Shown in pieces: positions 44,834 through 45,103 of a stretch of 64,000 nt of DNA. Positions within the stretch are counted from its first letter, which is position 1; each line of letters begins with the position of its first letter. The stretch lies in NCBI RefSeq assembly GCF_017876315.1, contig NZ_JAGINU010000001.1, forward strand, positions 4,650,001-4,714,000, read 5' to 3'. The position numbers were made by a program, and so were the translations under genes. The notes under the pieces were generated by a model that ran no database searches, was not told the origin of the DNA, and saw only the letters and a list, made by a program, of their open reading frames with translations. The DNA is from Pseudonocardia parietis. GTDB lineage: Bacteria; Actinomycetota; Actinomycetes; Mycobacteriales; Pseudonocardiaceae.

Positions 44834-44907
44834 GAGGGCCCGGCCACCGTGTTGGCGACCGGGCCCTCGTTCCCGAACTGACGCGCCGCTCCCACCACGA
44901 AGCGACA
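44834..44907 (-). ncRNA. Candidate iron-box-controlled small RNA, copy A
   Basis: Predicted 74-nt transcript. Its 3' end is a perfect 10-bp hairpin, GAGGGCCCGG / CCGGGCCCTC, with a 15-nt loop (44834-44868). It is preceded by a single-stranded segment nearly identical to copy B (44871-44930 against 45031-45090, 52 of 60 bases equal, offset exactly 160 bp). The conserved core includes GTCAGTTCGGGAA on the minus strand. There is no open frame of note. The hairpin also lies 16 bp after the convergent SWIM gene and may terminate both. RNA status is inferred from promoter, core and hairpin order. Confidence 0.55.
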
Positions 44908-44913
44908 TCACTG

Positions 44914-44942
44914 AAGTTAGCCTACCCTTAGCTGATCGTCAA
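44914..44942 (-). promoter_or_regulatory. Promoter with degenerate iron box, copy A
   Basis: On the minus strand TTGACG (44942-44937), 17-bp spacer, TAACTT (44919-44914). The spacer and -10 hold a DtxR/IdeR-like sequence that agrees with TTAGGTTAGSCTAACCTAA at 12 of 19 positions. Confidence 0.55.
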
Positions 44943-44991
44943 GACCCTCGATCCCTCCGGACGAGAACCGCAGAGGAGAGCGAAAAGAGGG

Positions 44992-45067
44992 ACGGCCCGG
45001 CCGCTGTGGTCGAGGCGGCCGGGCCGTGATTCCCGAACTGACGCGCCGCCCCCACCACGAGGCGACG
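44992..45067 (-). ncRNA. Candidate iron-box-controlled small RNA, copy B
   Basis: Predicted 76-nt transcript. It ends in a perfect 13-bp hairpin, ACGGCCCGGCCGC / GCGGCCGGGCCGT (44992-45027), with a 10-nt loop, followed on the minus strand by CCCTCTTTTCG, a real T-run that marks a Rho-independent terminator in this direction. The 5' segment is the paralogue of copy A; the hairpin sequences differ while the fold is kept. It has its own promoter and starts 70 bp downstream of the DUF3817 gene on the same strand. Confidence 0.6.
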
Positions 45068-45073
45068 GCGTTG

Positions 45074-45103
45074 AAGTTAGCCTAGGCTTACCTCAGACGT
45101 CAA
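45074..45103 (-). promoter_or_regulatory. Promoter with strong iron box, copy B
   Basis: TTGACG (45103-45098), 18-bp spacer, TAACTT (45079-45074) on the minus strand. TGAGGTAAGCCTAGGCTAA overlaps the spacer and -10 and matches the DtxR/IdeR iron-box consensus at 15 of 19 positions, around a perfect AGCCTAGGCT centre. Confidence 0.65.

Follow-up and report, generated by a model that had tools for sequence, protein, structure and literature searches.

Two paralogous units arranged in tandem on the minus strand of the 64,000-nucleotide stretch of Pseudonocardia parietis DNA analyzed here (the window) are almost certainly members of a family of small RNAs (sRNAs) under iron boxes. We further consider it very probable that both units encode an IdeR-repressed, trans-acting, iron-sparing sRNA that occurs throughout the Pseudonocardiaceae and that would act by the full mechanism that sequence comparisons predict.

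Unit B occupies positions 45103-44983 (-) and unit A positions 44942-44834 (-), with cores that are 160 bp apart, and both units share TTGACG, an iron box over TAACTT, a 5' hairpin, a linker and a terminator-like hairpin (Table 1). An initial annotation of this DNA had proposed a tandem pair on the minus strand with the same separation, promoter spacers of 17 and 18 bp, and perfect hairpins of 13 and 10 bp of which that of copy B ends in a T-run. All of these features were recovered. The spacer between TTGACG and TAACTT is 18 nt in copy B and 17 nt in copy A, the terminator stem of copy B has 13 perfect base pairs followed by CCCTCTTTT, and the terminator-like stem of copy A has 10 perfect pairs and is extendable. 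The close likeness of the copies, which had been put at 52 of 60 bases, also stands, with an exact count that depends on the stretch compared (54 of 66 aligned columns identical, with one gap, from TTGACG through CGTCAG). The proposed TTGACG/TAACTT promoters stand in part, as both elements are present but TAACTT is a weak -10 element and a strict sigma-70 scan found no promoter at copy A or copy B. Copies in relatives mostly have TTGCG or TTGAC at roughly the position of the copy B -35 element. A scan for T-run terminators did not find the copy A hairpin. From promoter and terminator we infer a transcript of approximately 75-90 nt. Rfam covariance models run over the whole 64-kb window gave no family at the gathering score, RyhB included. 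The neighbors in the window are a DUF3817 gene, located upstream and in the same orientation as the units, and a SWIM-domain gene that converges on them and is itself preceded by an SNF2-type helicase gene.

Table 1. Sequence features of the two tandem sRNA units in the window
Feature	Position	Strand	Basis
-35 element TTGACG, copy B	45098..45103	-	sequence read
IdeR/DtxR-type iron box, copy B, TGAGGTAAGCCTAGGCTAA, 15/19	45077..45095	-	consensus match
Putative -10 element TAACTT, copy B, overlaps iron box	45074..45079	-	weak against consensus
5' hairpin, copy B, GUCGCCUC-GUGGUG-GGGGCGGC	45045..45066	-	fold, covariation
Loop GUGGUG, copy B, putative seed 1	45053-45058	-	
Single-stranded linker, copy B, GCGUCAGUUCGGGAA, putative seed 2	45030..45044	-	near-invariant in sRNA family; complement in acnA leaders
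Terminator hairpin, copy B, 13-bp stem and T-rich tail	44983..45027	-	stem covariation across copies
-35 element TTGACG, copy A	44937..44942	-	sequence read
IdeR/DtxR-type iron box, copy A, TAAGGGTAGGCTAACTTCA, 15/19	44912..44930	-	consensus match
Putative -10 element TAACTT, copy A	44914..44919	-	sequence read
5' hairpin, copy A, GUCGCUUC-GUGGUG-GGAGCGGC	44885..44906	-	fold, covariation
Loop GUGGUG, copy A	44893-44898	-	
Linker, copy A, GCGUCAGUUCGGGAA	44870..44884	-	sequence read
Terminator-like hairpin, copy A, without clear T-run	44834..44868	-	fold, covariation

A third copy lies elsewhere in the same genome. A 30-base core pattern, with at most three mismatches allowed, matches 33 of 36 genomes of the genus, counting P. 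parietis itself, and is absent from all 24 genomes searched outside the host family, and a reversed control pattern has no match in any of the 60 genomes searched. The matching genomes of the genus carry one to three copies each, in tandem in some and dispersed in some; tandem duplication is optional and many genomes have a single copy. The covariance-model search across the Pseudonocardiaceae that had been suggested for this core was run with an alignment and model built from 54 copies. Applied to 397 genomes of the order, this model matches 78 of the 79 host-family genomes at E 2e-14 or better, the sole exception being G301, and none of the 318 genomes from other families at E 1e-5, where 256 genomes without a match were counted as outside the host family on the basis of the kinship order of the list. 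The core is conserved across the host family, and the possibility that it is missing from relatives while the hairpins alone persist does not hold.

Weaker covariance matches (E 6e-5 to 0.01) occur in 43 of the 318 genomes from other families, as counted in a run with stricter filters that lost some weak matches. Twelve weak-match places were taken, 11 of them outside the host family, of which four were read in context and the other seven as aligned strings. These 11 resemble unrelated iron boxes or the terminators of genes, and the combination of hairpin and linker occurs in none of them. One of them (L082:2001-2083), in another family, has an iron box, GTGGTGG downstream and a weak model match without the linker, and is either a chance match or a distant relative. 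A scan of named genomes gave at least 80 records, and among the matches listed 76 carry Pseudonocardiaceae names, including Pseudonocardia, Amycolatopsis, Saccharopolyspora, Lentzea, Actinokineospora, Prauserella and their kin. The other four among the matches listed are two Actinopolyspora, one metagenome-assembled genome (MAG) named Pseudonocardiales and Nocardia sp. NRRL S-836. Actinopolyspora is placed in its own family by NCBI; judged by these matches, the sRNA family is one of the Pseudonocardiaceae in the wide sense, Actinopolyspora included. At many loci of other genera (e.g. L074, L096) the gene preceding the sRNA codes for an MFS_3 transporter, with a frame that extends into the iron box, and at many a gene for an Fe/Mn superoxide dismutase lies downstream in convergent orientation (e.g. 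L110).

Copies were compared as 201 distinct strings (203 less two coding look-alikes, L108 and L408), a set that includes 25 strings from 38 loci added later. The conserved stretch, which had previously been noted for its identity between copies, is itself structured. Its 5' stem of 8 bp, GUCGCUUC/GGAGCGGC in copy A, closes on the loop GUGGUG, which is unchanged in all 201 copies, an invariance of the hairpin that is partly by construction since no more than two mismatches were allowed at collection. Double changes affect two of the eight pairs of this stem, in three sequences, with one such pair in copy B of the window, where a compensatory C-G stands in place of the U-A of 52 of 54 copies. 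As had been read from the two copies, in which the hairpin sequences differ and the fold is kept, the terminator stem varies freely in sequence across the family with pairing retained, and double changes are seen at 10 of its 11 pairs. For both helices taken together 98.8% of cells are paired with 12 double-change pairs, a result that none of 500 shuffles equaled. The linker is AGUCAGUUCGGGAAC in the sRNA family and GCGUCAGUUCGGGAA in Pseudonocardia. The copies constitute a conserved structured RNA family.

Conservation of the core could also reflect its codons if the IdeR-regulated transcripts encoded a small peptide, and short frames can indeed be read through single copies. However, the motif GTTCGGG follows the hairpin at a distance of 7, 8, 9 or 10 nt in 200 of the 201 copies (one copy, L128, has a changed linker), and since this distance changes between copies there is no reading frame that all could share. 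Additionally, no conserved start codon is seen in the aligned copies and the changes in the stem are compensatory. We reject the small-protein reading on these frame-breaking length differences among the 201 copies, and would give it hardly any probability.

Control of this RNA by iron is predicted from its promoter. The iron box recognized by DtxR/IdeR repressors has the consensus TTAGGTTAGSCTAACCTAA, against which all 19-mers of both strands of the window were scored with either centre base allowed. The best 19-mer scores 15/19 in both copies; an earlier score of 15/19 for copy B holds, while the 12/19 given for copy A is replaced by 15/19 when either centre base is allowed. Only eight 19-mers in the 64-kb window, both strands included, reach 13/19 or more, and all eight are located at the two sRNA promoters. 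Chance is excluded as an explanation by this placement of the eight best 19-mers together with the presence of the core in 33 of 36 genomes against none for the reversed control. An iron box of at least 11/15 is found upstream of all 201 distinct copies of the family, and in copies from other genera it nears the perfect consensus. The P. parietis genome encodes IdeR (L516), in which N-terminal, metal-binding and FeoA domains are all present, next to a gene read as galE. A repressor box on the promoter, which is a hallmark used to recognize iron-sparing sRNAs, is present in every copy compared, and an IdeR gene is present as well. The initial annotation had described paralogous sRNA genes under IdeR-type boxes, and the boxes in 201 of 201 copies, the IdeR gene and the conservation of the core all support that description. 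Judging from the box, IdeR would repress the sRNA promoters when iron is present. The genome also encodes a second DtxR-family protein (L515, G000:C1:9162-9368). At two loci (L100:2094-2214 and L123:1926-2025) the sRNA gene is accompanied by a second iron box on the other strand, which suggests an adjoining divergent gene under IdeR.

Target prediction with the conserved segments had been recommended by the initial annotation, and it was run here with the result that complements are found in the leaders of iron-protein genes. For acnA, leuC and the ferritin-like genes, leaders (defined as -80 to +15) came from 25 genomes in 23 genera; for sdh they came from 20 of these genomes and for sodA from 12 sRNA loci. 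Each leader was scored by its longest exact complement to linker or loop, with expected counts derived from dinucleotide shuffles. The 20 sdh loci are L213-L232, and left out of the sdh counts are G423 (L233), the own-genus type (L234, L235), G411 (L236, below the cut-off) and G009 (no match). Complements of at least 8 nt are present in 18 of 25 acnA leaders (1.8 expected), 10 of 20 sdhA leaders (1.3 expected) and 9 of 20 sdhC leaders (1.0 expected), and at least 10 nt are complementary in 13 of 25 acnA leaders (0.15 expected), counts that are not independent because the genomes are related. The leaders without an 8-nt match number 7 of 25 for acnA, 10 of 20 for sdhA and 11 of 20 for sdhC. When the letters of the sRNA were shuffled 500 times, the observed count was reached by no shuffled sRNA for acnA, by two for sdhA, five for sdhC, nine for the ferritin-like genes and 13 for leuC. 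Sense and reversed controls gave 0 of 25 for acnA, and the sense control gave 2 of 20 for sdhC.

Three comparison genes were rejected as targets with counts at or mildly above chance. Leaders with at least 8 nt of complement number 4 of 25 for leuC (1.0 expected), whose product is also an Fe-S protein and whose sense control likewise gave 4 of 25, 3 of 25 for the ferritin-like set (0.65 expected), which consists of the best PF00210 matches, bfrA or other, and 0 of 12 for sodA (0.3 expected). By these letter-level comparisons the complementarity to acnA and sdh leaders is highly non-random, and complementarity to mRNAs of iron proteins, aconitase among them, which is a second hallmark of iron-sparing sRNAs, is present in this family.

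The complementary sites differ between genera. One acnA leader contains a perfect 15-nt complement of the linker, while three Pseudonocardia acnA leaders have CCCACCAC directly 5' of the Shine-Dalgarno sequence instead of a linker complement. The sdhA loop sites sit in the gap between sdhD and sdhA, with flanks that vary between genera, and in the start region of the P. parietis sdhA, complements of the linker (8 nt) and of the loop (9 nt) occur in antiparallel order. A duplex scan of whole loci without regard to conservation gave noise, sdhC excepted. Duplex energies for six genes of the P. parietis genome are only modestly better than those of shuffled targets, with 1 to 14 of 200 shuffles as good, and those of a LutA-like gene are no better than shuffled targets (189 of 200 and 143 of 200 as good). 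The six include a UbiA-like gene that is not an iron gene. Approximately 100-150 nt upstream of acnA, most genera seen have a conserved block like TACAGGACAAGCGTACTGTTT (L287, L284, L276, L248), which is probably the promoter or operator of the aconitase gene.

Further candidate targets come from five Pseudonocardia genomes searched for complements of the loop that precede GGAGG and a start codon. This pattern has 63 matches as compared to 15 when read backwards, and a permuted seed has 15, of which four overlap true loop sites. Among the 63 places 48 were translated and two more are acnA leaders. Nine groups of sites (30 of the 63 matches) recur in two genomes or more; the grouping was made by eye, with some members assigned solely on identical or near-identical site strings. 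Six of the nine are iron or Fe-S genes, namely acnA, catalase, PhoX, a CCG (LutA-like) protein, SufB and a Rieske protein. PhoX binds iron, and lutABC is a target of the Bacillus sRNA FsrA. The three other recurring groups are not known iron genes: a UbiA-like gene (four genomes), an MFS gene and an unknown. Among the genes with single loop-site matches are those for a ferredoxin, a Dyp-type peroxidase and another Rieske protein, as well as many without known iron. A linker pattern placed before starts has 134 matches in six genomes as compared to 27 when read backwards, many of them within coding sequence. Of 15 such places picked by eye, three leaders precede Fe-S-related genes of other genera (sufS-like, cysH-like and gltB-like), and the remaining ones are coding overlaps, unrelated or uninterpretable.

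The recurring loop sites at genes not known to involve iron, and a conservation of the linker that exceeds what pairing alone may need, would also accord with an IdeR-repressed sRNA whose main role is not iron sparing, such as binding of a protein or of other mRNAs, with the acnA and sdh matches reflecting a shared protein-binding motif. We regard this as quite improbable, as two unrelated motifs, the complements of loop and linker, are found on the same operons and in antiparallel order where both occur, and the sense and reversed controls for acnA are 0 of 25.

An iron-sparing sRNA remains our preferred reading, and we propose that it would work as follows. In the presence of iron, IdeR would occupy the promoter-overlapping box and silence the sRNA gene, and when iron is short the sRNA would be transcribed. 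Conservation and covariation show that its 5' stem-loop presents GUGGUG(GG) and that it has a single-stranded linker and an intrinsic terminator. Loop, linker or both would then pair with mRNAs that encode iron-containing proteins or proteins of Fe-S assembly, in their leaders and start regions. Predicted targets are acnA and sdhCDAB family-wide, with catalase, PhoX, SufB, the LutA-like CCG protein and a Rieske protein as additional candidates in Pseudonocardia. From the complementarity, pairing in cells would be expected to lead to a translational block, mRNA decay and lower target levels. We lean slightly toward a dual-seed sRNA, in which acnA is captured through the loop in Pseudonocardia but through the linker in most of the other genera examined, both seeds lie antiparallel on some targets, and tandem copies could tune dose or repressor affinity.

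A literature search found no description of this Pseudonocardiaceae sRNA, which may be included among the unnamed predictions of PMC3827479; that paper reports 647 predicted sRNA loci in Saccharopolyspora erythraea. No mention of small or non-coding RNA was found in PMC8464063. The sRNA family is apparently undescribed. The initial annotation had called the pair an undescribed duplicate system, which agrees with the literature search as regards description, but duplication is not universal in the family. The proposed sRNA would give an entire antibiotic-producing family, which includes Amycolatopsis, Saccharopolyspora and Pseudonocardia, an iron-sparing regulator, and the seeds and targets predicted for it are open to direct test. 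Additionally, it may offer a natural record of how sRNA seeds change while the target stays fixed, and may serve as a case from GC-rich actinobacteria for asking which chaperone, if any, is needed.

Among known systems, the closest comparison is with MrsI (ncRv11846) of mycobacteria, described in PMC8628891 and PMC11188477 as an RNA of about 100 nt with an IdeR-box promoter, an apical-loop seed, a terminator and iron-protein targets. The IdeR box, 5' hairpin loop and terminator hairpin are all present in the Pseudonocardiaceae sRNA, and this same architecture, with a 5' loop seed and iron-protein targets, would be expected of a true MrsI orthologue that has diverged past recognition. Nine mycobacterial loci by or within approximately 1 kb of blaI are taken to hold MrsI because they have sequence in common, a box of the IdeR type and the apical loop of 7 nt that a review describes. 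However, the family covariance model has no match at the nine MrsI places, with the best match in those loci (E 0.004) lying elsewhere, and both loop and linker differ. Unlike MrsI, the copies in the window adjoin DUF3817, SWIM and SNF2 genes and not blaI, and the neighbors identified as conserved at other copies are an MFS transporter and an Fe/Mn superoxide dismutase. The Pseudonocardiaceae sRNA also differs from MrsI in having a second conserved single-stranded segment and one to three strong copies per matching genome of the genus. Orthology with MrsI is quite unlikely in our judgment, and on present comparisons the Pseudonocardiaceae sRNA is an analogue and not a detectable homologue of MrsI. 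At some mycobacterial loci (L131:1258, L133:1261 and L139:2075) a further strong iron box lies approximately 800 nt from MrsI, between MrsI and blaI, before another gene.

RyhB and PrrF1-PrrF2 of proteobacteria are iron-sparing sRNAs with aconitase as a target, and some species carry duplicates of ryhB and prrF, according to PMC9410917. The Pseudonocardiaceae sRNA shares with them the iron-sparing logic and aconitase as a common target; they differ in that control is by Fur there and by an IdeR-type box here, and in that no Rfam family reaches its gathering score in the window, with an analogue and not a homologue of RyhB as the best reading. PMC9410917 also describes FsrA of Bacillus and IsrR of Staphylococcus as Gram-positive iron-sparing sRNAs under Fur control with C-rich seeds, of which IsrR has several single-stranded seeds, and aconitase is again a common target. 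In contrast to FsrA and IsrR, the Pseudonocardiaceae sRNA has a G-rich loop, a mixed linker and an IdeR-type box. Iron-sparing sRNAs have arisen repeatedly, with unrelated sequences and common targets, and by analogy the Pseudonocardiaceae sRNA would fit as a further independent case.
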